Source of the DNA: Diprion similis
Taxonomy: Eukaryota > Arthropoda > Insecta > Hymenoptera > Diprionidae
Direction of reading: 5' to 3'
NCBI RefSeq assembly: GCF_021155765.1
Contig: NC_060111.1
Coordinates: 3,996,481 to 4,060,480 of the forward strand
DNA length: 64,000 nucleotides
In this document: piece after piece, positions 19,604-63,796 of the stretch
Layout: each line of letters starts with the position of its first letter
Position numbering within the stretch: the first letter of the stretch is position 1
The notes under the pieces: generated by a model
What the model was told of the DNA's origin: nothing
Database searches by the model: none
What the model saw: only the letters and a program-made list of their open reading frames with translations
Program-made: the position numbers and the translations under genes

Positions 19604-21913
<2,310 letters not shown>

Positions 21914-22120
21914 AGAAAAATTTCTGGCAGGCCTAGATATATTAGCGCTCAAAGACCGATCGACAAAAGACGAAGTGAAATTAAATATCACTTGACAATT
22001 TCAACTACTCGTTTTCATTCATCATAATTTATATACCACTGTTCACCGTCCGGTGAAAATCATTGTACAAAAGTCGAGACACATTACTATAAGTGACCTA
22101 TGTATAAATATACGATGTAT

Positions 22121-22126
22121 AATAAA
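22121..22126 (+). terminator. TMEM161 polyadenylation signal candidate
   Basis: AATAAA about 210 bases past the stop, followed by a second AATAAA at 22,172-22,177. Confidence 0.5.
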
Positions 22127-22910
22127 CAACGAACATAATATTTATATCGATAGTTTTGAAGAAATGTAAAAAATAAATTGAAACTGCAAATAGTATTTAT
22201 ATTATTATTACTGTAAATTTTTATTTTATTTTGTAAAATCTTATCAACGCGCAAATATTTGTATTAATCAGCTGCTTGTCAGCACCTTTTCGTCTCAGCG
22301 AAATATTCGTAATTAGCGCTTCTGGTTGCCTGCGGGAAAAATGCTTCATATTATCACAACCGGATAGGTTGACCTAACGAACGGGTTGCATAGAGTATAG
22401 GCGTAAGATTCAAATATCCATCACTAAACCAGAATATTTTATATCTTTTTTTTAGCACTCTCTACCAATTGTGTATTAAACTATGTTTTATTTTTCATTA
22501 TCAAGATCTTCAGAGCATCCGTTTCACTACAAACATTCCTACATAAATTGTACTGTTTTAATTTTTGATGACTGGTCAGGTTGCGCCTAATGATAGACTA
22601 TTCCGTTCGCACAGGTCAATAATCGATTTTTAAAATCATCATCAAGGACAGAATTCGTGACTTGAAAATATTTCCAAACACATGCGATACCAAAAACCAC
22701 ATGAAATACATTTTGAAGTTTAATTAAATGACATGGTTTGAAACGGAGAATCGATTGCGAGAGAACCCAAGCTTGAAATACCAAAGGTTTTGACATTACA
22801 GCTTACAAAGTAAAAATAAAACTAGTCGTGTTTCCTTTTACTTTCCAAACGCAATTCGTCAGTTTCTCATAAATCCTCTCAGGTTTAAATTTTTGCAAAA
22901 AATACAACTT

Positions 22911-22916
22911 TTTATT
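22911..22916 (-). terminator. Gustatory receptor polyadenylation signal candidate
   Basis: TTTATT on the plus strand (AATAAA on the gene strand), about 20 bases past the stop codon. Confidence 0.4.
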
Positions 22917-22935
22917 CTATTTCATTCGTTTTTAT

Positions 22936-25548: not shown

Positions 25549-26486
25549 TTTTAAGGGTAGTGTGTTCGGAGCCGTCAGAGCTTAGCATTTCACTGAAACT
25601 TTGGCGAACATTTAGCCAGCTGCACGAGTTCGTTCGCAGTTATGCGCAATTCTTGTTCGCACGAAAGCTTATCCTTGCCGCTGATCTGCAGTCCAACGGT
25701 TAGGCACATGTAACATGAATCTTTTATCCCCCACATTATGGGGATTAAATTTTTTTTCCATGCGACCTATTACTCCTTCAGAATAAAGCCTCGAAAATTG
25801 TTTCATTTTTGAAGGATACTTGATAGTTTGGAATTCGGTTTCTCCAGATTTGTTTGTTACTTTTACAATTGAAAATGGTATTTTAACCGCGATAGCTTTG
25901 ACTTTCTTTTGCTTTTTTTTTTTATTTATTTTTTTTTTTTTTTATCAGGATACGACAATTTTTACACCATGACAACGCAGTAATCAGGCTAATTACTTGA
26001 GACGAGTTATAATAAGTACTCGTGAATAATTAAGTAACCAGGTAACCAGATTATTTTTAAAGGGGGCAAACAGTGCGGAATTCGACTAATTGTTTCGTAG
26101 AAATAATTAGGGATACACGTATTGTTGTTGTTTTTTCTTGTGTGTTTTTTTTCCAATCTACTTTCATTTCGCGAATCGTTCATCGTCGTTTATAACGCGA
26201 ATATTACATATACAGCAATGGTTTAATATAAAACGAGCTTTATTTGCCCAACGACTATATTACAATTTATCATACAATAAACATTTAAAATAGGGGTTAA
26301 AACGATAACAGCTCATGTATAGGTATAATAATTATTTGATAAACGTCACAAGGTATATATACTGTATATATATATATACACACACACATATGTAATTTTT
26401 TATACATATGTATGTGTATTTATGTAGCTGAAATGATATGATTACGAACATTGCTTACGGCCATTGCGATATACGATATACATAAT

Positions 26487-42179: not shown

Positions 42180-42612
42180 ACTTCAGCGGTAAGAGCTTTT
42201 TTTTTTTTAATATTTATAAAATTCAAAGTGAGCTTTCTTAATTAATTTCTGGGACTTTAACGTGATATTGTACTAATTTTACTTGATATTTTTATTTTCA
42301 ATAGTATCTACAGCTAGTACCATCGTTTCAAAGTACTCGATCGTTGGCTTGACGTTACGAGTATAGAAATCTGCACGTTTTGGTGAAAGTATCGTTCGAT
42401 GCGATAGGGAATGAAATATTTAGCACCATCGTATGGATTATAGATTGGGATCACCTTGTTTACCGCGTCAGATCCTTTCGGTGGTTGTCGTGAGACTGAA
42501 TGACCACCAACCACTATCGATGGGCTCAGTTTTCGGCTCTCCGACAGAGGGCGTGAAAATCATCCCTACTCGCGCCAAATTAACATACGTAACGTGGAAC
42601 TTTGGCCCACGT
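42180..42612. repeat. Copy 1 of a long dispersed repeat, 3' of Nimrod-like gene A
   Basis: From the GCGGTAAGAGC word to the AACGTGGAACTTTG word, this segment matches 54,384-55,003 and 58,643-59,262. The last 190 bases (from ATGGATTATAGATTGGGATC) are nearly identical among the copies. Copies 2 and 3 carry about 190 extra internal bases. No convincing protein is encoded. It may be an old mobile element or a duplicated 3' flank. Confidence 0.65.
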
Positions 42613-42725
42613 TTAGGGGAAGATCGGATTGATGAAAGATGATTTATATGGATAATAAATTTACTAAATATATTGCTATGTGAATACAAATATTATCACC
42701 ATTTGTCAGTACAAAAAGTTGTCGT

Positions 42726-42827: not shown

Positions 42828-45574
42828 TCAAAAGAACGTACAGTATTTTCGTTGCAATGGCTCGTCGTACAAATGAACTGCTCCAGCGTCATCGTAAAGA
42901 GGTACATCTAGATATAGATAAATTGAGTGAGTAAATAGATACGGGTTAAATAACACAATACTTTTCACAAAAATTAGAACTGTGTGAAAAAAAATGATCA
43001 AATTTAATACGCAAGCTTTAAGGCATACCTTCCTTGAATCGTCCATTTCTTTGTCTCCAGAGCATAAAAGTAACAACGCCGAAGATCGTCGCGAACAATA
43101 TAATAGATGTTATTATTAATAGTATTATGATTGTTGATTTTTGTGATGGATTCTTATCGTTAGGTTCCATTTTGTTGCACGCAGAAGCTGAAATCACACA
43201 GGATCAATGGTTCACAATAGTGATTCGCACTTTTAAACACAGTTGTTTTATAACAACTGTCTGATATAGTTTCAGAATATAATGGGCAAACAGAAAAAGT
43301 GCGATTTGGCTTTATGAATTGTCGCATTAAAAAATTCAAACGAATCGTTTGACAAATTGTTTAAATTAGATTTTCGTCTGTGCAACTTTACTCACTGATC
43401 GGAATGAAATAGTAAATCATATTCGAGGTAGTTAGGCTGAAGTTAGCGATGTTTCTGATCTTGAGTTCGTTGAAGCATTTGTCGTGGCAGGCTTGAAGCT
43501 CGGTGTCAACGTGAAAATTCGTCGTCACATCGTCGGTGCTATAGGATTCCGAAAGCTCTCTGGAACTGATGTGAAGACGTAATGGATTTTCATTAACTTC
43601 TAATGAAATATACGGCAATTCGTTACATTCCCGATTGGTTTTTTCTGCCAGAAGCAGGTTTCGCACAAATTTGACGTCGCACTCTGTGCTCTGATTGGTT
43701 GAATCGGTTTCTACCTTTTGAACTTTATCTGGAATATTATTATCATTACTGTTATCATTATTAATGAACCCACCTTGTCCACTTGTCGGAGTTGTCAGGA
43801 ATGTGGAGTGTTATAACGCACATGGTCAGCTTCTCGCACGATTCTCCTGTCCAGCCAGGAGAGCAATCGCATCTGTTATTAGAGCACGTGCCATGCTCAC
43901 ACTTCGACTTGCATGCAACGCAGGTTCCTTTATCACTTTTGGGATTGCCGAATCCATGATTGCAGCGGCAAGTTTCAGGGCCGACGCAGGTACCCTTGCC
44001 GCATCTTTTACAGACCGGATTGCAGGTTGGCGCATTCTCAAAGACTATCTCGTACCCCGGAAGACACTTTCAGTAATTGGGACCGGTACATGTTGCAAAT
44101 TTGCACTCTGGTTTGCACGTTGGACGAGTGCACTGGCCATTTTTATTTTTCGTGTAGCCGTCGTCGCACTTGCAGGTATCAGGTACAACGCATGTGCCAA
44201 ATCCACAGTTTTTCGTGCAATTTAAAACGAAACACTGACCATATTCATTCTTACGGTAACCGTCGAAGCATTTGCACGTATTAGGACCAACGCATTCGCC
44301 AAATTCACACTTCGCATTACAAAACTGACCGTATGTAACGCTGTTTTTAGTTAGATCCTCTTTGCAGGTTTCCGGATAGATGCAAACTTTTCCATTACAT
44401 CGTTTCTCATTACATATCGGTTCGCAAGTTCGTTGGTTCGAACTCAATCTGTAACCTTCGTCGCAGGTACAGAGTTGCGACTCATTGCATTCCCCAGACT
44501 GGCAGGGACTGCACTTTGGATGGCAGATGAAGCTATTGGTTTGGGACTTGATGTACCCGTCGTTACACCTGCATTCGGTGAGACCCTCGCACTTTCCGTT
44601 AATGCAGTTGTCCAGTGAACAGGGTATTAAACAATTTTTGTGTATGCTGTCTCTCGTAAAGAATGAAGGGCAATCACCGTCTTCCGAACGTTTCGTCAAA
44701 CTTCTTATCTTCGAATTGTCTCTGTAGGTATCATAGAAAAATGATTCCTCACCACCACGCCGTGTTTTCTCTGGGTAAGTCACATGCTGGGAAAGGTTAT
44801 AAAATCCTTTCGTACTAAAAAATAAAATATACGAAAGAAATTATTCAAAATGTATTTCGGCTGTGCTGTGAAAATGAGTGGTGAGTTCTCGGCATTTACT
44901 GCAAGTACCGATTATTAATTTTCGAAGTACATTTCACCTCTTACAATGAATGAGTCACGAGGCGCCCCGGAAAATTATTGCCCGATTGACTACTTGACTT
45001 TGCATTAAAAATACGGCTAACGAGATTACGATTCCAGAGCTGAGTTCAGTCGCTATTTCGTCATCATCCTTTCTACATTACCCGCCGCGGTAACTCGGTC
45101 TTAAAACAATGCGAATTGAGGTCGGAAATCCTGCTACGAACCTTATCTTCTCCGCTTCCGATTTGCAGTAACAAAAAATCCCCACGGCCGATGAGTCATG
45201 TAGCGATCAACGTGAAATTGAAATTTCAAACTCTGCATAATGTAAAAAATACTACCGTAATTACTCACATGGTTCAAATCATTGCCCTTGTCGAAAAATT
45301 TTTGAAATATTCGGAGACTAGCTCGCATTTTGGGAAGAAATTTCCATTTCGTATGTATGGAAATAAAATACTTGTAATGATAAAAAAAAAAAAAAAAACA
45401 ACAACAACAACAATAATTATGTTCCAATAATGTTGTAAATACGGGAAATTAGTTATACGTATACCTTTCATTCTTGGGGCGCGACGGAGGGTAGAAGCTC
45501 CGCGGACTATTTGAATTTGCTGCAGAGAACGCTGCAAACACCACTACGACGCTGACAGTAACTATGTCTGTCAT
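42828..45574 (-). CDS. Nimrod-like receptor A: NIM repeats, membrane helix, tyrosine tail; interrupted by an in-frame TGA
   Basis: Five exons in gene order (45574-45465, 44814-43774, 43559-43396, 43187-43029, 42907-42828) fit phases 2-2-1-1, giving 517 codons. There is a signal peptide (MTDIVTVSVVVVFAAFSAANS) and a polar segment. From residue 98 come about seven NIM-like repeats with the C-x-P-x-C..C..G-x-C..P..C-x-C..GY pattern, one of them degenerate, then an EGF-like repeat (SNNRCDCSPGWTGESC). The family juxtamembrane module follows, then a membrane helix (457-481) and a tail containing VPLYDDAGAVHLYDEP. There is no EMI exon. Codon 285 (plus 44,070-44,072) is TGA at the position of a conserved cysteine (P-N-T-C-K-C in other repeats), one base from a Cys codon. 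Termination there would give a secreted 284-residue fragment. Nimrod proteins act in pathogen binding and phagocytosis. This may be a recent null allele, a readthrough gene or a base error. Confidence 0.8.
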
Positions 45575-46760
45575 TTCTATCTTCCTTTACAGCGATCGTC
45601 TACAAAATGATAAGTCAGTGGTTGAGGCGTTACATTATACCCTCCTCCGTCGCTCTTTACCCCTCTTTCAGCTAGTACTGGACAGTAGAATTATCAAAAC
45701 CACATTTTTCCAAGAAACCGCGATTCCAAGCTTTACTGCGGTTTTTAAACTTACATTGTAGCTGTCACTCAAATGAGGTCCAATTGGTGTTTGCCGTAGT
45801 ATTTTGTACCTGTAGGTACTGAGAGAAGAAAATTCGATCCGTCATCTTGGCGAAAGATTTCACGTTTCCAAAAACCGCGATTTGTGAGGCGACCAAGCCT
45901 AACGTGTCTGACGGCAACATATATGACTCGTTCAGTCACTTGGTATTACTTGATGCGATAAAACCAAGAATATTGCATGAAATCCGTTACTTAAGCGGTT
46001 TTCCTTCAACGTAATGTAAGCCTGCAGGCTAAGAAATAAAATCATATCAAAATTATGCATAATATGTTCGTCAATTTGTTCTTAGCCAGTGCGAATATCC
46101 TTTCTGGAGTTTCCTTTGCGTTTGTGACTCAGCGAATTGACGGTTGTTCAGAAATCAACCTTTAATGGAATGTAAAAAACACAACGTCCGTACATTAACA
46201 ATTCGAATCTTAAAAGACTTCATCGCACCTTTTGTGATATTCCATAAATCCATAATATATGCGATTTCTTGATATATGATAGAGTAGAAGTCTTGAGGAT
46301 TGATATCTAATTAATTATAAGGATTTCGTAGTCGTCGCTTGGCTACAGGTCCGATGAAAAACTTGTTGGATCGTGTTGTTGATGGTGTTATCGGTGGCAA
46401 TTATCATTAGTCACGTATATTTTATAAAACTTATTTACAAGATAAGAGATCAGTAAATTGAAGTTTTATTACTCAATCAAAAAATAATACAGTCTATAAC
46501 GTTATGAAATATATCTCCAGATTATCATCTCGCGGAAATATTTGACGGAATATTATCGATCCAATACAAATTATTCCCAGATTTGTGCATCGTTAGAATT
46601 GTATTTTGGATTCCGTATCAATTGTTAAATATTTTATGGATTGATTCGAGGTCCCATTTCGCAATTGGCGGTGAAGTGTTGCACCGAGTCGTTGAATCAC
46701 AAGTTTCAAAATTTGACAGGACGATTTCGTCAACAGCGATAGTCGGATTCGTCCAACAAT
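45575..46760. other. Intergenic spacer between receptors A and B
   Basis: It contains the gene A 5' flank and the gene B 3' UTR, with a candidate AATAAA (minus strand) at 46,465-46,470. I see no coding frame. Confidence 0.5.
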
Positions 46761-48591
46761 TCATTCGTATATGGGACTAGAGTGTGCGTTGGACTTTGTA
46801 ACTTCATCGGACAGGGAAAAGAAGAATTTTGGCTTCGGTGTTTCGAATTGCGACTTTCCAAGATCGTTGGATTCCGGAACCGACGCATCTACGGATGAAG
46901 AGAACAAATTGAATACCCTGGATGCAATTTTTTAGAATACATCGTTTAGGTGCCCTAAATGTTCTCAGGCTTCTGACATTTGAATCCTTTCACGCACGCC
47001 ACACGTCAACGTTAAATTTTCAATCTATGAAATAAGTATCTAAGCTGAAGTTACCCTTGATTTTGTATTTTTGTCTGGTCGTTCTACATGCGATAATGAC
47101 CAAGATGGCGACGATCAGGTCAATCAATACCGCCCCGATGAATATTCCCAACACTTTGTTGCCGGTACTGTTTGAAAAGCTGAGTTCAGCGGCTTCCGTC
47201 TCGTCACATTGCAAGTCTGCAGGAATCATTGAGAATAAATGATCTATTCACACACTATCCGAAGTACACGTGATCAGATATGATTCATTACCCGTGAGTG
47301 GGTGCAAAGGATTACCGAAAAAGGACAGGATTCGAATTGAAAATCCTGTACGCAGTAACGCTTATCACTCAACTCACCGATGGGGATCAAATAGTAAACG
47401 ATGTTCGTGAGAGCTTGAGACGAATTGACAGCCTTTCTCCGGAGTTCGATGGGGCATTTTTGATCACAGGCTGGAAATTTCCACTCATCGTCAGGATCCT
47501 CATTTTTAGCTTCGGCACTACGTGGTGCTGAAGTCACACTGATGAAGTCAAAATAATGGTTAGAAGAATGTTTTATCAAGAGTCTTGTAGTATCCCAATT
47601 CCAATACCTTACAAATTGCAATGACACGTTCTGTAGTGAGAATGACTTGAAACTTCGACTCACTACTGACGGTTTACCATGAAATTACACAATCAGACTT
47701 ACCTGCTGTCGCAGGCAACCTCTTCTCCGTCGAGTTCAGCGATTACACACAGAAGTGGTTCATCGCATAAATCGCCCCCCCAACCATAGTTGCATCTGCA
47801 CTCATTGGCTGACGTTTGTTCTCCATGAACACAGGCTCTGGATATTGGCAAACATTCGGAACCGTTTTTCCAGTAGCCATCAAAGCACGTGCAGTCTCTG
47901 AAGGGACGCTTGCACCATCCATTCGTACAGTAAGCGGTACACCGAGGAACGCATTTCTGATTTGATTCAACGTGCTTATGTCCCCACGGACACATGATCC
48001 AAATTCCAGAGATCGCTTTTTTCTCACTGCAAAGACCCTGACATTCCCCCTGAGCGTTGCCGCAGTCGCAGATCAGCGAGTCGACGCAAACTGCCAAGCT
48101 GCAATTGTAACTATTCAAATCTAGTTGAGACGTTTCGTTCTTGGTCTCATCATTGGGACAGCTTGTCTCTTGAATCTTGAAAGTCGTGTAGAGCTGCGGT
48201 AGAAAATTTAATTAAACGAAGTTTGAACCAAGCAACGAACGTGAATTCCATCCAGATTCACGATCACAGTGTAAAGCTGTTCTCACCTCAGTGATGTAAT
48301 TGGTGCGAAATCCTTCGCAGGTGAAGATCAACCAGCATCTTTCGGTGTACAATTCTTCATAAGGGATGTCGCGTAATTCCTGATAACTGTGGAGTAAATT
48401 TCAATGTAACGCTGATGAATACGGCGACGCGTTGCTTTTGGCTTCCGTTCGATTGATCGAATAGATATGCACGTTTGTGACACACCTTACCTCACTGTTT
48501 CGTAGCACACGTTATCTTCGGGGAGATCCGAACGCACCAAATATCCGATAAATGATAGAATCATCGTCCACCAAACGATCTTAGTCGTCAT
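46761..48591 (-). CDS. Nimrod-like receptor B: EMI-like, NIM and EGF repeats, single membrane helix
   Basis: Six exons in gene order (48591-48491, 48386-48287, 48193-47703, 47538-47378, 47216-47055, 46888-46761) fit phases 2-0-2-1-1 and give 380 aa. A hydrophobic signal peptide (WWTMILSFIGYLV) is followed by an EMI-like domain across exons 1-3 (VCYET, PYEELYTERCW, TCEGFRTNYITE). Next comes MCPWGH (134-139), in the position of the Nimrod CCxGY motif, then one NIM repeat (148-174, CVPRCTAYCTNGWC to FDGY) and an EGF-like repeat ending GWGGDLCDEP. The juxtamembrane module (FPACDQKCPIELRRKAVNSS, YYLIPIG) and a Cys precede a membrane helix (306-328). The tail is Ser- and Lys-rich and ends SSPIYE, with one C-terminal tyrosine, unlike the paired tyrosines of A, C, D and E. 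Likely a plasma-membrane pattern-recognition or phagocytic receptor; function is inferred from the family. Confidence 0.85.
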
Positions 48592-49572
48592 TATCCTCGT
48601 TTTCACAGTTACTCTACCTGCAGTTGACTGTGTCGACGAGGGTAAACGGCAAACAGAATTTTCAAGTTCCTGGTTTATGCCTTTTTATCTTTCCCACCAG
48701 CAACGATCGAATGTCACTTGACGTATGTGACAACCGCATGAGCAAAACTACTCACCTTGAAGCGATGATATGTTCCGCGCATATCTCGCTCTTGTATTTT
48801 AAATGTATAAGTTAGAATTGTTCGTCGAATATAAAGGGCTTTTAATCAAATTGACATAATATTAACACACGTAGATATATATTCGATGCTTCATTGACTG
48901 AGTAAGTGATTGAACAATGGCCGCATATGGACGTGTCGAAGCGTCTTGAGTAGCTTATAGTCATTGTCACCCGGTACAAATACACGAACATTGTGTTCAT
49001 TTAACAGAAATATTTCTGCCATTCAATTATTCGTAGCCTAAACAATTTTTTTCGACGTTCCATGTCTGATTGCAAATATCATAAATATCCTCTACCCCCT
49101 ACCCCTCCCACGACCACGCCCGCGGTGTCATGGAATAAAAACATTCTTCGAATGCGAACAATTAGACCCCAAACCCGTAGATTTGATAACACGATTTTGT
49201 AGAATAATATTTCAAAAACAGATAGACTGGAAGTTAGATTTATGAAATTAAAGATCGTCAAATTTTACTCCTTTAAGTATTATTATTCATGGATGGAAAT
49301 TTTTTCAATTCTATCATAAAGTCACAAATCATCAAAAACACGGTTGATTCAGATTTGCGTACTTTGAAATTATCAAATTCGACCTACGTTGATACTATTC
49401 GTTGAAAGCAATCTACATTAGTAATTAAACTTCATTATTTTTCAATCCGATTTTTTTTCACAAAATTCACAGTTAAGCATCACATTTTGTGATCTGAAGC
49501 GTTCCTCAACCACCAGATTTTGCACAATAAGAAGGGTTGACCCTTTAATCAACGAACTATTTTCTATCAGAA
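48592..49572. other. Upstream flank of receptor B
   Basis: AT-rich intergenic sequence with no repeat or coding frame I can support. Confidence 0.5.
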
Positions 49573-50500
49573 CTAAGGGTTGTAGTAGAATTTCTTACGT
49601 GTGAAGATTCGATTTGGGTAATCGATAATTCGGAAGTCGAAGTGAAATTGACTGATGCAGACGAAATATGAATAAGATATAGATTTTTTCTTTTTGTCAA
49701 AAGCTGAACAATTGGATTTCCATTTTGAATTAACATTGAATATCAAGGTATGAAATACGTAGATGAATTCACCATCGATTTTGGTTCTTTTTCTGGTGAA
49801 CAGCATGAACAAGTCTTGAAATCTGAAATCGTTCGCCAACTTAGAGATGCACATTCAAGCATTACTTCCGTTATCGCGTTGTTGCGTCTTTTGGAAAATC
49901 ACTCCTTCAATTCCGTGTCATTGCAATTTACAACTGAGAATATAAGACAAAGATTAATAATTCGCACACGTGCTGTGATCCATCTGGTAGAGTCTATCAT
50001 CACCGACTTACCCACCAATGGGGATCAAATGGTAGTCACGTTTGGTGCAAAAAGGGTTGCACTTTGGCGAACACTTGATTTCGACATTGTTCAACTGATA
50101 CTTTTTTTCTCGCAATTATTTACTACAAACAAGAAAATTTATTCCAGACGCATTTTTACGTACAGAAATGCATTCCTCTGATTCCCAATACAGTCACAGG
50201 TATACGGTTGTTTGCAATATTGGCAGTATCTGAAATATCGTGGTTCACAATTCTCACATTAATTTTCACATTCTTCACAGCACGTCTTGTTCCATCTAAA
50301 CGACTCGTATTTCTAAGACAAAAAGTATAATTCAAAGCTATGACTTCAATTCTTACGAAGAATCGACTTCACTAAGATTCGACGTCGCTATATACTTACG
50401 AAGCGTCATTCGTACGTGTCCGAACTAAAGTGAAAAACAACCAACATCTTTTGTAGTATGTATCTTTATATGGAACAGAATGCGATACGTCATGACTGCA
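49573..50500 (-). pseudogene. Decayed Nimrod-like receptor copy
   Basis: Fragments in the gene's exon order are recognisable. An exon 2-like piece (about 50,500-50,403) reads VPYKDTYYKRCWLFF, matching the EMI exon of C-E. A shortened juxtamembrane exon ends CTKRDYHLIPI before a GT at about 50,022. A VNCNDTELKE piece near 49,940 ends in a TGA where the membrane exon should continue. A tail-like exon at about 49,640-49,573 has lost its AG acceptor (ATCG where gene F has ATAG). The NIM/EGF exon is absent between 50,170 and 50,400. With a lost exon, a nonsense codon and a broken splice site, this is a relic. The similarity of its tail region to that of gene F (63.7-64.0 kb, including a shared TTCTGGTGAACA intron stretch) suggests a common ancestor with F. 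Confidence 0.6.
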
Positions 50501-51581
50501 AAAAATACACAAGCTCAGCAACAATGAACGTATTTAAGTCCCATTTTTGGATCATAAAAGATAGTTCTGCCTCCTTAGACACTCGTGACAAAATATTTGG
50601 GAAAACCAAAGATGGTTTACTTCGCCACTGACGATGGTAATAAATCTGTCACTCACCACTACTATCATCCAACACCTTCAACTAGCCTCGTAGTTACCTT
50701 TATGGAATGCAACACTGTCACAAGCTAATTTTAATTGAATGAGACCAAGGAAACTGACGAGTTTGTGAAGTGTTGAGCGTTGTTTCCGGATGACAATCAA
50801 TGACGTTACGAATTTTTGACAATTTTATAAAATCACTTGAGTTCAGGCCAAAAATTGGAAAAAAGGATCGAATTCTGTGCGGAAAATTAAAAATCAAATA
50901 CCAGCAACCCAGTCGATCTCAATCACCGATGAATAATTACAAAATTAGGGTGTCATGAATATTTTCAATACCAAAAGTACAAGGAAACTGACAGTGGGTT
51001 TGTGCTAAGTGCGATAAAAAAATATTTTAATGGCTTGCGTTCGTTTATATCGGTCATACAGAAAAAATCAAGCTTGAAATGACGTAGAAAATGTTCCATC
51101 ATGATATGGACAGACTCAAGAAGTTAATTTTATTTCTCAACTGTCAATTTTGTTTACAAGTCAAATTTGTCCATTACAATATATTATTCGATCATATTAA
51201 TGTTATATTTTATTTTTATTATTACGAATTAGAGTACGAATGTAGCGAGAATAATCGTCGTTTCACGAACCAATTATTGTAAAAATAATACGAATCATGT
51301 GCTTGTCACGAGTAATTCGACACTGATTTTAAATTGTTATTAACTACCTATAGGTAAAGTAGATCGCAATCTGACAGTCACTTCTGTCGATATGCGGTAA
51401 GAAAAAACATTCCATGTCGAAGGAATAGCTAATTCCTCAATCACTATAGATCAAATTTTCATATCTCGACTGTCTATTTATTTACCCTCTTATAATTTGT
51501 TTATCGGTAATTGGTATGGTTCAGAATTTCAGAACTGATGACATAATCGACACGCTGCAATTACTTCGTCGGAAATGGAGA
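50501..51581. other. Spacer between the relic copy and receptor C
   Basis: AT-rich. It includes the presumed 3' UTR of C, with an AATAAA candidate on the minus strand at 51,477-51,482. No coding frame supported. Confidence 0.5.
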
Positions 51582-53435
51582 TCACCTACCACTCTGAGTG
51601 GCCATATATAATGTATTTTCCTCGACGTATTCGTCGTCCACAAATCGAGCCGTTGTATCTAAAAGCCACAAAACTTGAGCGTGAGCGGGCGATTGGAATC
51701 AGGAGGCACAAGAATATCCATCAAACGATTACTCAAAGCGAGAAAAGTGAGTTATTCGTATAATTATGCAAATTTTTATTGAACCAAACATAATTTTACC
51801 TCCTTTGTTGATTTTTGTTCCTCTTTTTTTCCGAAGGATACAAGCAGTGCTGATAATTCCGAGCAGAAATGTTATGGTTGCCAAGATTACTGCTGCTGTT
51901 ATGTTACTATGTTGAAAATGAAATGGTTGATCAGTTTCCATAGCGTTGCATTGGGAATCTGAAACGTTAGGTATGCGAAATGAATTCATAAGTCATTTAC
52001 GATTTTATATTATAACTACGTTTAAGATGAAAAGAGGCTGAAGATTTTTGCAATCAATCGATCAGTATGGACTGCAAGAATATGCGAAGAGTATTCTTTG
52101 ATTTGTTTAATCAAGACGATGCGTTGCTAGGCAATGCATAGTTTGAATTATAAGGCTTGTCATATCAAGACTTTACTTACCAGCAGGAATCAAATGATAC
52201 GTTATGTTTGCGAGAATCTGAGTAAAAATCTTAGCCTTTCCTCGTAGATCATCGGGACATTTCTGTTCGCAACCGGGGAACTCTTTCCAATTGATTTTGG
52301 AAGTATTGTTCCTGCTTTAAAACAGAATGAAACGCCACTTTCACACTTTGCACGAAAATACGACTCGTCATGCGAAAACCTTACGAGTTAGAAATTGGGT
52401 ATAGAATAATGACCGCTACTTGACACATCTCGTCCTATTCCAAGCTGGTGTGAATAAACTTGAATGACGTGATGTCACGGCGATTCTAGACATGAGATAC
52501 GCAATCAGACTCACCTGGTTCCTTTGGCAACGTCTTCACCGTCGACTTCGGCGATTACGCACCATTGTGGCTCATCGCAGGAATCACCAGCCCAGCCAGA
52601 GTCGCACTTACACTTAGTGGAAGATACGTGCTCTCCATGTATACAGGCTCTGGAGGCTGGCAAACATTTTGAACCATTTTTCCAGTAGCCCTCAAAGCAC
52701 GTGCAGTCTCCGTAGGGGCGCTTGCACCATCCATTCGTACAGTAAGCGGTACACCAAGGAACGCATTTTCGATTCGATTCAACGAGCGTATGTCCCCACG
52801 GACACATGATCAAAAATCCAGAGATCGCTTCTTTCTCACTGCAAAGACCCTGACATTCCCCCTGAGCGTTGCCGCAGTCGCAGATCAGCGAGTCGACGCA
52901 AACTGCCAAGCTGCAATTGTAACTATTCAACTCTCGTTGAGACGCTTCAATCTTGTTCTGATCACCGATACAGCTTGTCTCTTCAGTGTTAAACGCCGTG
53001 TAGAACTGCCAGTAAAAATTTCAATGAAAGAAATTTGATCGAAATTCACGCTCACAGTCCAAAGCTGTTCTCACCTCAGCGATGTAATTGGTACGAAATC
53101 CTTCGCAGGTGAAGAACAACCAGCATCTCTCGGTGTATGATTCTTGATAAGGGACTCTCCGTAATTTTTGATAACTGTAAATGGATTCTGTATGTATAAG
53201 CAAAGAACAAGGCAATTCGTTGAGTCAGATTTCTTTCCATTCGGTCGAACTCAAGCTTGTGACAAATATTTTTTTCCACATTAACAATAAGAAAACTGAT
53301 TATCCTGTGTGCACTTCACAGTCGACTTTACCTCGTCTTCACGTGGCACAAATGATCCTCCAGGAAGCTTGGACGTGCGAACAATCCTATTGCAAGCAAC
53401 GCAATCCTGGCCCAGCGGACAGTATTGGCGACCAT
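51582..53435 (-). CDS. Nimrod-like receptor C: EMI-like, NIM and EGF repeats with its own membrane and tail exons
   Basis: Six exons in gene order (53435-53332, 53174-53075, 53005-52515, 52311-52181, 51958-51800, 51658-51582) fit phases 2-0-2-1-1 and give 353 aa. The signal peptide (WARIALLAIGLFA), EMI-like exon (VPYQESYTERCWLFFTCEGF) and most of exon 3 are almost identical to receptor D. The NIM repeat reads CVPWCTAYCTNGWC and is followed by an EGF-like repeat ending GWAGDSCDEP. The juxtamembrane module (FPGCEQKCPDDL, YHLIPA), the membrane exon (helix about 295-318) and the short tail (DDEYVEENTLYMATQSG) differ completely from D and E. The tail carries two tyrosines seven residues apart in an acidic context. 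C thus joins a unit-type 5' half to a distinct 3' half, consistent with unequal exchange near exon 3. Family role: cell-surface recognition or phagocytosis (inferred). Confidence 0.85.
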
Positions 53436-55884
53436 TGCAATCCTTCTTTAGAACCGATAAGTTTCAAGTAATAAGTAAGAATACGGACAAGTGAAGGAAG
53501 TTGAAAGACAGTGGTCAACGAGGCTTTATCTCTCCCACCAACATCGGGCGACAATGTTACGTCCTGCATGGTGACCGCGGCGTGGCAGTCAGTGAATTCA
53601 TATCATTTTCCTAGAAAACCAAAAATACGTATTCCTCGTGCAATATTTTTCACAGACACAGAACCAACGAATTTAATTGAATTATGTATTTACAGCGAAA
53701 AAAGTCATCAGCCAAATGATTTTGAAAACTTATTGTAATCCTTGTCTCTTGTTTGGTCTCTTGAACCATCAGCACTGTCGTTAATTTTGAAGTTTCCAGA
53801 AATTTAAAAATTAACTACAATTGGAATTCAAAGAGCCGAATCGCATCAAAAACAGAATACAAATATTTTCATAAGCAATACGTATAGAGATAAAAGTTAT
53901 TAGAAAAATTCTGAATCGTCGCTTGGCGAATGGAAGGTTTTCGGGGAGGGAACGTGAGGCGTGACGGACCCTCGAAGCCGCTAATTATTTTTTGTGGCTT
54001 TTGAGAACCGGGTACAAGTTATTTTGATCTAACTCGAAAAAATTCATCACCATTTTGCTATGATTGAAAAAAAAAATTCGTGAGGCACGATGGACCCCCT
54101 TTAAGAAACGATTAAAAAGAACAAAAACATTACTATGTCGGGGGCAACATTACAGATGTGAAATTATACTTTTTTTCTCTAACAATTTCTCTTCTCTGTC
54201 CAATAAATATTTTTTAATTGAATCGCATGTCGTGTAATTTGTACTTGAGGTTCTCCTCAAAGAATAAAAAATTGGTAATCAGTGTTGCCAGCGTGGCAAA
54301 GTCTACGTACAATAATTCGTATAATGCTTCACTATGAGTGTGCAATTTTGGGGGACTGGGGAGAAAATCTGGGGAAAAACTCGTCATGTCTCAGTGGTAA
54401 AAGATCTGTGTTCGAAAGATTCATGGAATTCAAATTGAGCTTTCTCGTTTTTCAGGACAGTAACTTGATATTGTACTAATTGTACTTGATATTACCATTT
54501 CCGTTACTAGTACAGCACCACTTTTTCAAAGTACTCGGTAGTTGGATTCATGTTACGATTACAGAAATGTTCACTTCTCGGCAGAAGGTAACTTTCAATG
54601 GTATAAAGATTGAAGTTCTCTTTCAAATCAATTCATGCTTCTGTACCTTTTTAGAATCAAATACAAAGCTACCATCGTTAACCGCATTGTTGTTTGAAAA
54701 GAGCGACAGACATTTCTACCAAAATTGTTACGTTGCATTGACACCTTTTAATTGTTTGAAAGTGAAACAATTTATTGTTCGGTATTTACCACCATCGTAC
54801 GGGAATCAGATACGTTGATGATGGATTGTAGATTGGGATCACCTTGTTTACCACGTCAGATCCGTTCGGTGGTTGTCGTGAGACTGAATGACCACCAACC
54901 ACTATCGTTGGGCTCAGTTTCCGGCTCTCCGACAGAGGGCGTGAAAATCATCCCCACTCGCGCTAAATTAACATTCGTAACGTGGAACTTTGTCCCATGT
55001 TCACGGGTACTCCGGTCGATACAGAGGAAAATTGGTAAAAATTGAGAAATTTGTTTCTCGCCGGTTGACTTTCATGTAAACTTTTGGAAAATGTTTGAAA
55101 TAATAATAGGGACAAAGTGCACCCTGATATTTCACGCTGAAATCTCAATTTTACAATATCATAATAATATTTAATACGAATATAATAACTAACAAAGAAA
55201 AAAAAAACACAGCTGAAGTCAGCAGCGGATTCAGCCTTATCTTTCCGGATCGCAATAAATAAGCATGATGAAGTATGTAATATCTAAACCGCAAACAAAT
55301 TTTCCTCAAGGAGTTATCGGTCGACGAATCCACCGTTTGACTCATCCATTTTTTACAGAAGTTGAATGTTGAATTTACGTCTTTTCATATTTCTTGTAAA
55401 AAGTGGATTCCGGCCTTTCTGAAATTCGCAGTGACAGACGAAGCTGGTAAAGAAATTTAAGGATTGCAACAAACATGTAGTTTTCAGATTGTTTACGGAC
55501 TAAAGTTCAGGTGTTTCCAAAAAATCATGTAACGGATTTCTCCCTGGTTCCGGAGAAATTCATTGCTACGTTAAAAATTTGTGAGTCTGTGGTAGAAAGT
55601 ATGAGGACTACTTAATATTATGGTCTGTATTGGGTGAAAACTTGAAATTCAACTGAGTAGAATTATTAAGTCTTTGTCCTCTCAATAAAATTCGATACTT
55701 TAATTCACTACTTATGGAGCCGAACTCACTTGGAGCTATCAAGTAATACACGTTCCACGCGATTATACTTGTCCCATTATTAAGGAAGTTGGATTCTCTG
55801 GATACTGTACGTACATATTGTAAATGATTGGCACACTTTATTGTTATTTCATTAGGATATCAAGTAAAAATCACGATATTGTAA
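53436..55884. other. Spacer between receptors C and D
   Basis: Non-coding spacer belonging to the duplicated unit. It includes copy 2 of the dispersed repeat, and on the minus strand an AATAAA at 55,837-55,842 just past the D stop codon. Short frames here recur in the next unit only because the DNA is duplicated. Confidence 0.6.
54384..55003. repeat. Copy 2 of the long dispersed repeat, 3' of receptor D
   Basis: It matches the segment at 42,180-42,612 but with about 190 extra bases internally (about 54,580-54,780), and is near-identical to the copy at 58,643-59,262. Confidence 0.65.
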
Positions 55885-57694
55885 TCACCGGAAGCAACAC
55901 AGGTGGAGGCGTCGTTTTGGTAAGTCATATACTGGTACCACGACATCGTCGTACTCCGGAACTCGTTGACCTGCAAAAGAACAGATATTATGACGATTCG
56001 ACGAGATGGAATCGGAAGGAGTCTTGTGTTGATCCAATTCGTTTAAAAAGTTAGATAATTCAACAGAGCTTTCACATTTTGAGGCTGAAACTTCATTGTA
56101 TATTGATAACGAGTCAACATCGTCCAACTATGATTTACCGTTCTGTGTCCTTTTGTTCCTTTGTTTCCAATGCACGGTAATTGCAATGAGTGGAATTAAA
56201 ACTAGTAGTATATTTTCTAGGAATATTGCGATCACGATGTTACTCCATTGGTTTGAAGAGTCCGTGACATTAGCTTCTGGTTTATTACACCGAGAGTCTG
56301 GGAATGAAGAGTATTATTTATATACTTACATCAACGTAATGGATCCTGAGATATGGGTTTATAAAAACCTTATTCGCAATATTTCCAGAGATCAGTTCAC
56401 TCACCGATAGGAATCAAATGGTAGATCATGTCCATGAGATATTGGGTAGAATTGACAGCTTTCCCGTATAGTTCTTCAGGACATTTCGGTAAGCATGCGG
56501 GAAATATCTTCCATACCATTTCGGAATTATGAGTCCTGTTGATGGAAAAAGTAACATTTAAATAGGTGGAATCAAAACAGGATAACTTTTTTCCTGTAAC
56601 AGCTACATTCCGGAAAATATGGCTCCTCATGCGACAGCCTTACCAGTTAGAACTTGTGCGTAGAATAATCGCTGATACTTGACACATCTCGCCGAATTTC
56701 AAGCTGGTGTGGATACATTTAAACGACGATATGGCACGCCGAACCTAGATACGAAATACGCAATCAGACTCACCTGGTTCCTTTGGCAACGCCTTCACCG
56801 TCGACTTCGGCGATTACGCACCATTGTGGCTCATCGCAGGAATCACCAGCCCAGCCAGAGTCGCACTTACACTTAGTGGAAGATACGTACTCTCCATGTA
56901 TACAGGCTCTGGAGGCTGGCAAACATTTTGAACCATTTTTCCAGTAGCCCTCAAAGCACGTGCAGTCTCTGAAGGGACGCTTGCACCATCCATTCGTACA
57001 GTAAGCGGTACACCGAGGAACGCATTTTCGATTCGATTCAACGAGCTTATGTCCCCACGGACACATGATCAAAAATCCAGAGATCGCTTTTTTCTCACTG
57101 CAAAGACCCTGACATTCCCCCTGAGCGTTGCCGCAGTCGCAGATCAGCGAGTCGACGCAAACTGCCAAGCTGCAATTGTAACTATTCAACTCTCGTTGAG
57201 ACGCTTCAATCTTGTTCTGATCACCGATACAGCTTATCTCTTCAGTGTTAAACGCCGTGTAGAACTGCCAGTAAAAATTTCAATGAAAGAAATTTGATCG
57301 AAATTCACGCTCACAGTCCAAAGCTGTTCTCACCTCAGCGATGTAATTGGTACGAAATCCCTCGCAGGTGAAGAACAACCAGCATCTCTCGGTGTATGAT
57401 TCTTGATAAGGGACTCTCCGTAATTTTTGATAACTGTGAATGGATTCTGTATGTATAAGCAAAGAACAAGGCAATTCGTTGAGTCAGATTTCTTTCCAAT
57501 CGGTCGAACTCAAGCTTGTGACAAATATTTTTTTCCACATTAACAATAAGAAAACTGATTATCCTGTGTGCACTTCACAGTCGACTTTACCTCGTCTTCA
57601 CGTGGCACAAATGATCCTCCAGGAAGCTTGGACGTGCGAACAATCCTATTGCAAGCAACGCAATCCTGGCCCAGCGGACAGTATTGGCGACCAT
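55885..57694 (-). CDS. Nimrod-like receptor D
   Basis: Six exons in gene order (57694-57591, 57433-57334, 57264-56774, 56535-56405, 56297-56139, 55970-55885) fit phases 2-0-2-1-1 and give 356 aa. Layout: signal peptide, EMI-like domain, MCPWGH in place of CCxGY, one NIM repeat (CVPRCTAYCTNGWC to FEGY), EGF-like repeat (GWAGDSCDEP), juxtamembrane module (FPACLPKCPEELYGKAVNST, YHLIPI), a Cys, then a membrane helix (about 296-317) that unusually contains Glu-Asn. The tail has VPEYDDVVVPVYDLP and ends LHLCCFR. The paired tyrosines, eight residues apart, recall signalling tails but are not a canonical ITAM. In exon 3, D agrees with B rather than C at several codons (KK, PRC, RPFRD), which suggests sequence exchange. 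Role inferred from the Nimrod family. Confidence 0.88.
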
Positions 57695-60143
57695 TGCAAT
57701 CCTTCTTTAGAACCGATAAGTTTCAAGTAATAAGTGAGAATACGGACAAGTGAAGGAAGTTGAAAGACAGTGGTCAACGAGGCTTTATCTCTCCCACCAA
57801 CATCGGGCGACAATGTTACGTCCTGCATGGTGACCGCGGCGTGGCAGTCAGTGAATTCATATCATTTTCCTAGAAAACCAAAAATACGTATTCCTCGTGC
57901 AATATTTTTCACAGACACAGAACCAACGAATTTAATTGAATTATGTATTTACAGCGAAAAAAGTCATCAGCCAAATGATTTTGAAAACTTATTGTAATCC
58001 TTGTCTCTTGTTTGGTCTCTTGAACCATCAGCACTGTCGTTAATTTTGAAGTTTCCAGAAATTTAAAAATTAACTACAATTGGAATTCAAAGAGCCGAAT
58101 CGCATCAAAAACAGAATACAAATATTTTCATAAGCAATACGTATAGAGATAAAAGTTATTAGAAAAATTCTGAATCGTCGCTTGGAGAATGGAAGGTTTT
58201 CGGGGAGGGAACGTGAGGCGTGACGGACCCTCGAAGCCGCTAATTATTTTTTGTGGCTTTTGAGAACCGGGTACAAGTTATTTTGATCTAACTCGAAAAA
58301 ATTCATCACCATTTTGCTATGATTGAAAAAAAAAATTCGTGAGGCACGATGGACCCCCTTTAAGAAACGATTAAAAAGAACAAAAACATTACTATGTCGG
58401 GGGCAACATTACAGATGTGAAATTATACTTTTTTTCTCTAACAATTTCTCTTCTCTGTCCAATAAATATTTTTTAATTGAATCGCATGTCGTGTAATTTG
58501 TACTTGAGGTTCTCCTCAAAGAATAAAAAATTGGTAATCAGTGTTGCCAGCGTGGCAAAGTCTACGTACAATAATTCGTATAATGCTTCACTATGAGTGT
58601 GCAATTTTGGGGGACTGGGGAGAAAATCTGGGGAAAAACTCGTCATGTCTCAGTGGTAAAAGATCTGTGTTCGAAAGATTCATGGAATTCAAATTGAGCT
58701 TTCTCGTTTTTCAGGACAGTAACTTGATATTGTACTAATTGTACTTGATATTACCATTTCCGTTACTAGTACAGCACCACTTTTTCAAAGTACTCGGTAG
58801 TTGGATTCATGTTACGAGTACAGAAATGTTCACTTCTCGGCAGAAGGTAACTTTCAATGGTATAAAGATTGAAGTTCTCTTTCAAATCAATTCATGCTTC
58901 TGTACCTTTTTAGAATCAAATACAAAGCTACCATCGTTAACCGCATTGTTGTTTGAAAAGAGCGACAGACATTTCTACCAAAATTGTTACGTTGCATTGA
59001 CACCTTTTAATTGTTTGAAAGTGAAACAATTTATTGTTCGGTATTTACCACCATCGTACGGGAATCAGATACGTTGATGATGGATTATAGATTGGGGTCA
59101 CCTTGTTTACCACGTCAGATCCGTTCGGTGGTTGTCGTGAGACTGAATGACCACCAACCACTATCGTTGGGCTCAGTTTCCGGCTCTCCGACAGAGGGCG
59201 TGAAAATCATCCCCACTCGCGCTAAATTAACATTCGTAACGTGGAACTTTGTCCCATGTTCACGGGTACTCCGGTCGATACAGAGCAAAATTGGTAAAAA
59301 TTGAGAAACTTGTTTCTCGCCGGTTGACTTTCATGTAAACTTTTGGAAAATGTTTGAAATAATAATAGGGACAAAGTGCACCCTGATATTTCACGCTGAA
59401 ATCTCAATTTTACAATATCATAATAATATTTAATATGAATATAATAACTAACAAAGAAAAAAAAAACACAGCTGAAGTCAGCAGCGGATTCAGCCTTATC
59501 TTTCCGGATCGCAATAAATAAGCATGATGAAGTATGTAATATCTAAACCGCAAACAAATTTTCCTCAAGGAGTTATCGGTCGACGAATCCACCGTTTGAC
59601 TCATCCATTTTTTACAGAAGTTGAATGTTGAATTTACGTCTTTTCATATTTCTTGTAAAAAGTGGATTCCGGCCTTTCTGAAATTCGCAGTGACAGACGA
59701 AGCTGGTAAAGAAATTTAAGGATTGCAACAAACATGTAGTTTTCAGATTGTTTACGGACTAAAGTTCAGGTGTTTCCAAAAAATCATGTAACGGATTTCT
59801 CCCTGGTTCCGGAGAAATTCATTGCTACGTTAAAAATTTGTGAGTCTGTGGTAGAAAGTATGAGGACTACTTAATATTATGGTCTGTATTGGGTGAAAAC
59901 TTGAAATTCAACTGAGTAGAATTATTAAGTCTTTGTCCTCTCAATAAAATTCGATACTTTAATTCACTACTTATGGAGCCGAACTCACTTGGAGCTATCA
60001 AGTAATACACGTTCCACGCGATTATACTTGTCCCATTATTAAGGAAGTTGGATTCTCTGGATACTGTACGTACATATTGTAAATGATTGGCACACTTTAT
60101 TGTTATTTCATTAGGATATCAAGTAAAAATCACGATATTGTAA
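57695..60143. other. Spacer between receptors D and E
   Basis: Near-identical copy of the 53,436-55,884 spacer, including the poly(A) signal candidate at 60,096-60,101. No independent gene. Confidence 0.6.
58643..59262. repeat. Copy 3 of the long dispersed repeat, 3' of receptor E
   Basis: Duplicate of copy 2, carried along in the 4,259-bp unit with few substitutions. Confidence 0.65.
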
Positions 60144-61953
60144 TCACCGGAAGCAACACAGGTGGAGGCGTCGTTTTGGTAAGTCATATACTGGTACCAC
60201 GACATCGTCGTACTCCGGAACTCGTTGACCTGCAAAAGAACAGATATTATGACGATTCGACGAGATGGAATCGGAAGGAGTCTTGTGTTGATCCAATTCG
60301 TTTAAAAAGTTAGATAATTCAACAGAGCTTTCACATTTTGAGGCTGAAACTTCATTGTATATTGATAACGAGTCAACATCGTCCAACTATGATTTACCGT
60401 TCTGTGTCCTTTTGTTCCTTTGTTTCCAATGCACGGTAATTGCAATGAGTGGAATTAAAACTAGTAGTATATTTTCTAGGAATATTGCGATCACGATGTT
60501 ACTCCATTGGTTTGAAGAGTCCGTGACATTAGCTTCTGGTTTATTACACCGAGAGTCTGGGAATGAAGAGTATTATTTATATACTTACATCAACGTAATG
60601 GATCCTGAGATATGGGTTTATAAAAACCTTATTCGCAATATTTCCAGAGATCAGTTCACTCACCGATAGGAATCAAATGGTAGATCATGTCCATGAGATA
60701 TTGGGTAGAATTGACAGCTTTCCCGTATAGTTCTTCAGGACATTTCGGTAAGCATGCGGGAAATATCTTCCATACCATTTCGGAATTATGAGTCCTGTTG
60801 ATGGAAAAAGTAACATTTAAATAGGTGGAATCAAAACAGGATAACTTTTTTCCTGTAACAGCTACATTCCGGAAAATATGGCTCCTCATGCGACAGCCTT
60901 ACCAGTTAGAACTTGTGCGTAGAATAATCGCTGATACTTGACACATCTCGCCGAATTTCAAGCTGGTGTGGATACATTTAAACGACGATATGGCACGCCG
61001 AACCTAGATACGAAATACGCAATCAGACTCACCTGGTTCCTTTGGCAACGCCTTCACCGTCGACTTCGGCGATTACGCACCATTGTGGCTCATCGCAGGA
61101 ATCACCAGCCCAGCCAGAGTCGCACTTACACTTAGTGGAAGATACGTACTCTCCATGTATACAGGCTCTGGAGGCTGGCAAACATTTTGAACCATTTTTC
61201 CAGTAGCCCTCAAAGCACGTGCAGTCTCTGAAGGGACGCTTGCACCATCCATTCGTACAGTAAGCGGTACACCGAGGAACGCATTTTCGATTCGATTCAA
61301 CGAGCTTATGTCCCCACGGACACATGATCAAAAATCCAGAGATCGCTTTTTTCTCACTGCAAAGACCCTGACATTCCCCCTGAGCGTTGCCGCAGTCGCA
61401 GATCAGCGAGTCGACGCAAACTGCCAAGCTGCAATTGTAACTATTCAACTCTCGTTGAGACGCTTCAATCTTGTTCTGATCACCGATACAGCTTATCTCT
61501 TCAGTGTTAAACGCCGTGTAGAACTGCCAGTAAAAATTTCAATGAAAGAAATTTGATCGAAATTCACGCTCACAGTCCAAAGCTGTTCTCACCTCAGCGA
61601 TGTAATTGGTACGAAATCCTTCGCAGGTGAAGAACAACCAGCATCTCTCGGTGTATGATTCTTGATAAGGGACTCTCCGTAATTTTTGATAACTGTAAAT
61701 GGATTCTGTATGTATAAGCAAAGAACAAGGCAATTCGTTGAGTCAGATTTCTTTCCAATCGGTCGAACTCAAGCTTGTGACAAATATTTTTTTCCACATT
61801 AACAATAAGAAAACTGATTATCCTGTGTGCACTTCACAGTCGACTTTACCTCGTCTTCACGTGGCACAGATGATCCTCCGGGAAGCTTGGACGTACGAAA
61901 ACACTTACTGTAAGCAACGCAACCGTGGCCCAGTGGACAGTATTGGTGACCAT
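60144..61953 (-). CDS. Nimrod-like receptor E, recent duplicate of D with a different signal-peptide exon
   Basis: Exons in gene order (61953-61850, 61692-61593, 61523-61033, 60794-60664, 60556-60398, 60229-60144) give 356 aa, with the same phases as D. From exon 2 onward the protein appears identical to D, including the NIM repeat, juxtamembrane module, membrane helix and VPEYDDVVVPVYDLP tail. Exon 1 differs at several residues (MVTNTVHWATVALLTVSVFV against MVANTVRWARIALLAIGLFA), because the high-identity tract ends within this exon near 61,865. The upstream flank, and so probably the promoter, is therefore unique to E. D and E could be expressed differently while producing the same mature receptor. 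Confidence 0.88.
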
Positions 61954-63668
61954 TGCGATCTCCTTTAGAACCGAACACTTTCGAGTGCCAAGTGTTAATA
62001 CAGATGGGTTGGGCTAAACAGAACGTAATGAACCACGGACTTTATCACTCTTACCATCAGCGGACGAGAATCCCACGTCCTGCTTCGTGACCCATCATCG
62101 TTTACCAGTTATAATTTCCGTTAATATTGTCAGAAGTAATGCAAAATATTCATACTTCGTGAAATATTTTTTTCCGCCACAAAGTCTGGAAATTCAATTC
62201 TATAATTTACACGTTAAAATCATCATTTGCGAGCCTGCAGACTGACGTAAATGGCAAGTAGGTTTGTGACGTTTGTGACTGTTGCCGGTAATATTTCTTG
62301 CTCTACTTTACCGTATTACATTGATTTACGGGGCTTTCGCTCCGCGTTTAATATCCAAACATCAGACGTACTGTTTTCAGATACATTCAACGCTGCTTAG
62401 TAAATAAGGAATTTCCATTCAAATTTTGAGTAATTATAATAACAAAAGTTTTTTAAAAATTGATTGGTTCATGGTGATAGCAGTAAACGTGGTTGTGAGC
62501 AAACAAATAATTATATTTAACAAAGAACAAAGCTTGAAATTGTTTATTTCAGTTGGTTTTGGTTACGCACAATGCACTTTGAGTGTTCAAAAATCAGTTA
62601 ATTATCAAAAATCAATTATCTTAATGAATAAGAGATCGACTGAACTTGAAAATCTATTCAGGGTAAATTTTAGCGATGAACTGCTTCTATGTAATTTAAT
62701 GAAGACTGTTTTGCTGCTAGATTTTTTAATAAATGCCGCGATTTCAACCGTGCAATGCTTTTCTTGGAGTTCTTTTTTCAGTCTACAGTTTCTAACGAAC
62801 TTGCCAATTGGCTCTTCCCAATTTTGTGGAATCTGGACCAACGAGAAAAATTTACGTACGAAGAGATAATATTTTCGGCCTTCTTATTCACCCTCTTTAC
62901 TCCTTATTTGCTTTCTCACGAATCGTTTTATTTATCTTTTCTAACTTTAATTAAATAAAAATATACGTATCGAACAGAACATTGATCGCATATATTCGTG
63001 TTTCATTATTTATTTGATCATTGACATCTTCGTATTTACGTAACAATATATAAATTAGATAAGACGCGTGGCGTGAAAGGTCATCACCGGAAAGTAACGT
63101 CACAATACATGAATGACACGTTACTTGACGCTTAACAGTTTTTGCTAAAAATCTCACGAGGCGAATATCTAAGACTATGAAAATCATCGCGAAAATATTT
63201 TGCTCGTTGGCCTCCGATATCAAAGGGACACCATTCGTTGTCTTGTAAGATCCTTCTGGTACTCGCGTGCACGTGAGCTTGTTAGAATATCGTTAAAACT
63301 ATTCAATTTTCAGGTTAGGATAATCAAATCGTTGAATGAGTTTGAAGCGAACATAAAGTTAGACGAAAGTAGAATTACGTATGTAGAGGACGGCCGGGAA
63401 AAATGGGCCCCAAACGTTGAAAATTATTTTTAGCCCAAATCAAAAGAAATGATGATTTTTACATTTTTTGTAGAATGCGTTCCGGTTAAGGGGTTCATTT
63501 TTTCTGGCCCTCTCCTGTACAAAAGTTGACAGTAAAAATAAGAACTATTTATGATAAAATACAAAATCATAGTTATAAAAGTCGTTAATACGTGTAAAAG
63601 GTAGCGTTGAATGATGATCATCCGTAACATGAGGTGATTGGTCTACCTTAGAAGTCGAATTTTAATAT
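61954..63668. other. Upstream flank of receptor E and 3' flank of receptor F
   Basis: Unique AT-rich sequence. A 147-codon plus-strand frame at 62,426-62,869 has no family motif, signal or splice support and overlaps a comparable open frame on the other strand, so I do not call it. No repeat was recognised. Confidence 0.45.
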
Positions 63669-63796
63669 TTATGTAACTTCACAATAAATATGTTCTGAAA
63701 CATCGCGCTCTGTGGTTTGAAGCACAGGCTCCTTAGCTTTGATACTGTATACATTTGGCATAAATCCAACGTCGTCATATGTAGGTTCTGGGTCAT
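63669..63796 (-). CDS. Last exon (cytoplasmic tail) of Nimrod-like receptor F, partial at window edge
   Basis: A phase-1 acceptor (GAATTATAG) precedes a 128-base exon encoding DDPEPTYDDVGFMPNVYSIK and ending EHIYCEVT before TAA. The exon phase, position and paired-tyrosine pattern (YDDV, then a second Tyr ten residues on) match the tails of A and D. The upstream 200 bases to the window end are intron, so the membrane and extracellular exons lie outside. The intron shares a TTCTGGTGAACA-type stretch with the relic copy near 49.79 kb. Membership of the family is inferred from the tail alone. Confidence 0.6.

Follow-up and report, generated by a model that had tools for sequence, protein, structure and literature searches.

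A tandem array of compact Nimrod-type receptor genes in the sawfly Diprion similis is a mosaic of shared ectodomains and different tyrosine-motif tails

Nimrod superfamily proteins are recognized by the NIM repeat, with the consensus CxPxCxxxCxNGxCxxPxxCxCxxGY, and by a CCxGY motif before the first NIM (PMC4073527). The order nimA-nimB-nimC is described as well conserved across insects, the beetle excepted (PMC2375007), and the copy number varies, with 17 NIM proteins in Musca and 11 in Drosophila (PMC4195910). NimA consists of an EMI domain, one NIM, and two EGF repeats, and is reported to have no role in phagocytosis in three assays (PMC13076899). The Draper receptors are modular, with tail forms that carry ITAM and NPxY motifs and an inhibitory isoform, Draper-II, that binds Corkscrew via an ITIM (PMC8092387). 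In the vertebrate paired receptors CD300A/C and Siglec-11/16, gene conversion keeps the extracellular parts alike while the signalling differs (PMC12447643, PMC5701461). Among the matches listed in our search, from which the subscription literature was mostly absent, no insect or Nimrod system combined homogenised ectodomains with divergent tails, and priority is uncertain. The accessible parts of the pine sawfly and bee literature describe no such array (PMC10542623, PMC13063555, PMC8702095); in those parts, PMC10542623 does not use the word Nimrod and tabulates NimC1 as absent with one Eater match, and PMC13063555 names Nimrods merely as a gene group.

The window analysed here is a stretch of 64,000 nucleotides of the 269 Mb D. 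similis assembly (C7:3996481-4060480; C7 is contig NC_060111.1). Positions below count from its first letter and, right of its edge, continue on the same scale. The region 42828-63796 contains five receptor genes, A-E, together with one relic and the final exon of gene F. A sequence-only reading had placed all of these in one orientation, which our models bear out, as the GT/AG models of A-E, the F exon, and the relic are all on the minus strand. The right edge of the window falls within a NimA-NimB-NimC-type cluster of ∼63 kb, near Ance-like peptidase exons. To the right of the window are F, G, and F2 (minus strand), F3 (plus strand), a paralogue of A termed A', the long NIM genes H and I, a NimB-like gene J, and NimA. 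The cluster runs NimA, NimB-like J, long I and H, A', and the compact genes, all on the minus strand except F3, and thus has the nimA-nimB-nimC order. An Ance-like peptidase is expected beside a cluster of this type, and PF01401 (peptidase M2, Ance-type) exons are found from C7:4114915 to 4163796, with more PF01401 loci on two further contigs, C1 and C8. A genome search, whose counts are lower bounds, found eight compact genes (B, C, D, E, F, G, F2, and F3), four of them wholly inside the window, and a single locus at about 4.04-4.075 Mb of C7. Left of the array, 10 ORFs were picked from 268, and five of these had a Pfam match at E<=0.1. They belong to an EB-module protein, a TMEM161 gene (19.9-20.2 kb, plus a second, weak piece), and a two-piece gustatory receptor (7tm_7); the latter two lie at 19881-25581. 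In a second NIM array, at C7:8150033-8175799, three open frames follow one another in tandem; they are 815, 815, and 818 residues long, and each contains 137 Cys.

The spliced models of A-E have GT/AG junctions throughout. In B-E, exon 1 encodes a putative signal peptide, exons 2 and 3 encode a Cys-rich N-terminal part, the NIM, and the EGF-like repeat, exon 4 the juxtamembrane region, and exon 5 the transmembrane (TM) segment; a sixth exon, encoding the tail, is present in C, D, and E. The phases of the introns after exons 1-4 are 2, 0, 2, and 1 in B-E, with phase 1 after exon 5 in C, D, and E. The claim that all of the genes share intron phases therefore stands for B-E but not for A, which has no exon 2 and in which the phase at the start of the NIM exon is 2 rather than 0. 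Gene A (42828..45574, minus strand) comprises a signal exon (45574-45465), the NIM exon (44814-43774), and juxtamembrane (43559-43396), TM (43187-43029), and class 1 tail (42907-42828) exons. Its NIM exon contains an in-frame TGA at about 44071, inside a NIM repeat, and A' (82.5-83.5 kb) is open at this position. Gene B (47020..48591, minus strand; exons 48591-48491, 48386-48287, 48193-47703, 47538-47378, and 47216-47020) has a model that stops in exon 5; no convincing exon 6 was found for it, hence no clear tail exon. The relic (50132..50622, minus strand) is a decayed F-type gene with stops, 74.5-75.1% identical to F and F2/F3. Gene C (51582..53435, minus strand) has exons 53435-53332, 53174-53075, 53005-52515, 52311-52181, 51958-51800, and 51658-51582, and its tail, DTTARFVDDEYVEENTLYMATQSGR, is of class 2. 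Gene D (55885..57694, minus strand; exons 57694-57591, 57433-57334, 57264-56774, 56535-56405, 56297-56139, and 55970-55885) ends in a class 1 tail, as does gene E (60144..61953, minus strand; exons 61953-61850, 61692-61593, 61523-61033, 60794-60664, 60556-60398, and 60229-60144; tail GQRVPEYDDVVVPVYDLPKRRLHLCCFR). The last exon of F (63669..63796, minus strand) encodes a class 1 tail that starts DDPEPTYDDVGFMPNVYSIK, and the remainder of the gene lies right of the window, up to 65661. After its exon 2 (65289), F has a GC donor in place of GT, and F2 has GT. Given the broken A and the GC donor of F, some of the genes are possibly non-working.

The domain content of these genes is that of Nimrod-type proteins. 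Each of B-E has one NIM repeat, with one extra residue relative to the consensus, followed by one EGF-like repeat. This agrees with the sequence-only reading, and the NIM spacing was matched by 0, 1, 0, and 0 of 300 shuffles for B, C, D, and E, respectively. For A, about seven NIM repeats had been proposed; three have the strict spacing and the others are looser, compared with 13, 9, and 8 strictly spaced repeats in H, I, and J. The Nimrod-type assignment itself is upheld by the NIM spacing, by the EGF matches, and by a cluster that also holds NimA, NimB-like, and long NIM genes. A Pfam check of the spliced proteins, which the same reading had suggested, detected EGF and not EMI. The EGF matches (PEAR1-like in A, B, C, and E) pass the cut-off for A, H, I, and J, while those of B, C, E, and F2 fall below it. 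The EMI domain that had been assigned to B-E has no Pfam support: PF07546 had no match (E<=1) among the proteins scanned in spliced form, namely A, B, C, E, and F2 (D, F, and G were outside this set). An exon-wise genome search, which may miss a domain split across exons, returned NimA (33.5 bits, over the cut-off), a locus on C8 (22.4 bits), and nothing else. We therefore reject EMI as a Pfam domain of the compact genes, and we take the "EMI-like" character of exon 2 to be a matter of resemblance. F2, G, H, I, J, and NimA have the CCxGY motif, which A-E and the NIM exon of A' lack. Because A-E are without this motif, though F2 and G, close relatives, possess it, we term A-E Nimrod-type and not full members on every feature. 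Each of A-E shows a single C-terminal hydrophobic peak, as expected for a single TM segment. At the N-terminus, where hydrophobicity was used in place of a dedicated signal peptide predictor, a 19-residue peak above 1.6 occurs in A only, and the 11-residue maxima are 2.08 for B, 2.15 for C, 2.44 for E, and 2.13 for F. A search for solved-structure relatives of E gave eight weak matches at E<=1, the best at 0.25.

The juxtamembrane exon links the compact genes to the long NIM genes, as exon 4 is common to both groups: 34 of the 36 pairs compared reach p<0.05, the misses being B-A' (0.169) and G-A' (0.058). Together with the cluster order, this shared exon places the compact genes at the NimC position with a NimC-type C-terminal plan, and judged by these two features they are NimC-type. 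With NimC1 and Eater they have in common NIM repeats, one TM segment, their place in the cluster, and the juxtamembrane exon of this genome's long NIM genes; they differ in having one NIM rather than many, in the occurrence of eight compact genes in one array, and in the mosaic described below. Like NimA, they combine a Cys-rich N-terminal part, one NIM, EGF, and a TM segment. The sequence-only reading took the compact plan for a subtype that looks lineage-specific. A plan of EMI, one NIM, and EGF is already described for NimA (PMC13076899), and as NimA is also single-NIM and is reported to lack a phagocytic role, the plan alone is no argument for phagocytosis. The resemblance raises the alternative that the compact genes encode NimA-like adhesion receptors, not receptors for microbes or debris, since NimA mediates adhesion and is reported not to act in phagocytosis (PMC13076899). 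We regard this as unlikely: the cluster has a separate NimA at its far end with a Pfam EMI domain, which the compact genes tested do not match, and the compact genes have one EGF after the NIM, not two, together with the juxtamembrane exon of the long NIM genes.

The tails of the array genes fall into three groups. Class 1 (PxYDD, then a second Y) is found in A, D/E, and F, class 2 (Y-V-x-E-N-x-x-Y or close) in C, F2/F3, and G, and class 3 (CVYxxxM) in A' and I. Eight tails, giving 28 pairs, were compared in shuffle tests; the classes had been drawn by eye beforehand, and for F2, G, A', and I the tail exon was chosen by splice signal and phase and partly by resemblance. Within classes, 6 of 7 pairs reached p<0.05 (E-F, 0.053); of the 21 pairs across classes, none did (lowest p 0.0502, for F-G). 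H, which is outside this test, ends by eye without such a tail motif. A motif scan of 40-144 kb on both strands, with patterns derived from the same tails, found each class at its assigned genes. Alternative last exons within one gene were considered and rejected because in the scan every gene has a single class; in addition there are three orphan tail exons of class 2 (74248, 75073, and 80087), to which no receptor body was assigned. ITAM and ITIM motifs have the forms YxxI/L-x(6-8)-YxxI/L and S/I/V/LxYxxI/V/L, respectively. No canonical ITAM or ITIM was seen by eye in the eight tails tested; the nearest to an ITAM is that of F, YDDV-x6-YSIK, which is spaced like an ITAM yet has V and K as its +3 residues. 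The YDxP in the tails of A and E presumably resembles Crk/Nck SH2 sites. Draper-I and Draper-II provide a precedent within the superfamily for activating and inhibitory tail forms, but those arise from one gene by alternative splicing, whereas the array consists of separate genes whose motifs are, by eye, neither ITAM nor ITIM.

The class assignments put each of three ectodomain types (A, C/E, and F) on two tail classes, and this mosaic of ectodomains and tails is the new element of the locus. The three pairs (A/A', C/D-E, and F/F2) are 93-100% alike across the shared tract. C and E agree at 91/104 positions in exon 1, 156/157 in intron 1, 100/100 in exon 2, 69/69 in intron 2, and 482/491 in exon 3, past which identity falls to 75% in intron 3 and 64, 54, and 63% in exons 4-6. 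The tract of C that matches E (52497..53350, minus strand) thus covers exons 2-3 and introns 1-2 at 98-100% identity, compared with 54-75% from intron 3 on. That introns 1 and 2 are near-identical points to recombination as the cause, not purifying selection. F and F2 are 89% identical in exon 1, 86% in intron 1, 97% in exon 2, 96% in intron 2, 491/491 in exon 3, and 97% in intron 3, followed by 96, 72, and 60% in exons 4, 5, and 6. In A and A', the similar tract is about 1 kb long, corresponds in essence to the NIM exon, and is 93.1% identical. In exon 3 of B and E, dS is 0.10 in codons 1-110 and 0.81 in codons 111-163. For each of four pairs, the best segment was tested against 1000 permutations, none of which attained it. 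Selection on exon 3 of C was also considered: 8 of 9 codon changes relative to E are replacements, yet the excess over exon 2 and introns 1-2 has p=0.058, and we did not retain it.

Gene D is itself a hybrid. It shares with C exon 1 and about 2.4 kb of upstream sequence (8 mismatches), and 155 of 163 exon 3 residues; with E it is identical from exon 3 on, while exon 2 and intron 1 each differ by a single base. D thus joins the exon 1 and upstream region of C to the body (exons 2-6) of E, with the switch between 57499 and 57610, as an unequal crossover of a C-type with an E-type gene would produce. The corresponding tandem unit is 4259 bp, with copy 1 at 53240..57498 and copy 2 at 57499-61757; the phase of the unit is arbitrary, and 13 mismatches between the copies were counted between 53000 and 57600. 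The sequence-only reading had missed the identity of D and E, the mosaic, and the tail classes, as well as the stop in A and the lack of a convincing exon 6 in B. A 187-bp non-coding element, without assigned strand, occurs at 54821..55007, 59080-59266, and 42433-42619. Its copies are 94-99% identical, and the three genome matches found are all within the array. The copies at 54821-55007 and 59080-59266 lie 1.4 kb upstream of the ATG of C and D, respectively, and the element is possibly regulatory. Rfam searches were negative for the window at gathering scores and for 54600-55150 at E<=1, and RNA folding of the element gave z values of -0.32 and -0.66, no unusual fold. Right of the window there is a palindrome (69302-74571/74750-80018), with 5.27-kb arms that are 99.77% identical around a spacer of about 178 bp and that carry F2 and its inverted copy F3. 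The identity of D with E from exon 3 on and the similarity of these arms would also follow if D/E and F2/F3 were false duplications of the assembly. This we consider very improbable, as the 104 kb of sequence read contain no N, D fuses the 5' end of C to the body of E and differs from both at two positions (57361 and 57438), and the tail differences of C/E and F/F2 are clear and independent of D or F3.

We observe, then, gene models, a cluster position, a NIM repeat, a TM segment, three tail groups, and ectodomain-sharing recombination, and the reading we prefer is that the genes probably encode NimC-type single-pass surface receptors, tandem-duplicated at the NimC end of the NimA-NimB-NimC cluster, in which the ectodomain is shared independently of the tail, with ligand binding outside and tyrosine signalling inside. 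By analogy with Draper-type receptors, the outer part (the N-terminal Cys-rich exon, one NIM, and one EGF) would bind ligand, and the tail tyrosines, once phosphorylated, would recruit SH2 adaptors. Recombination would have moved the ligand-binding exon between tails, so that the same ectodomain on different tails may give different outputs to one ligand. The array genes are presumed to be expressed, and co-expression of C and D is predicted from their common exon 1 and about 2.4 kb upstream.

Whether the different tails have a functional meaning is a further question, to which ordinary birth-and-death of a tandem array is a possible answer, with exons homogenised blindly and tails that differ without functional pairing. 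The array is evidently unstable, as seen in the palindrome, the orphan tail exons, the relic, the stop in A, and the hybrid D. The occurrence of a different tail class in all three ectodomain pairs could be chance, nor is it proof of selection, since in D/E and F2/F3 the ectodomain and the tail are both shared. Blind turnover accords less well with tyrosine motifs that are retained in otherwise divergent tails, and with an exon 3 that is more alike between F and F2 than the introns are (0/491 differences versus 12/367 in introns 2 and 3, p=3e-5). Going beyond the reading preferred above, we put forward tentatively, and with some doubt, an insect paired-receptor system in which gene conversion and unequal crossing-over share the ligand-binding exons, and class 1 and class 2 tails read one ligand with different sign. 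The putative pair that shows this most cleanly would be C and D, as exon 1 and the upstream region are alike, exon 3 is nearly so, and the tails differ. CD300A/C and Siglec-11/16 differ from the array genes in belonging to the immunoglobulin superfamily and in having known opposite signalling, and the two groups have no common descent.

In vertebrates, paired receptors balance immune cells, and gene conversion keeps their extracellular parts similar. Should the tails of classes 1 and 2 turn out to differ in signalling, insects would have arrived at this solution too, with a different protein scaffold, and the array supplies matched natural pairs with which paired signalling can be tested.
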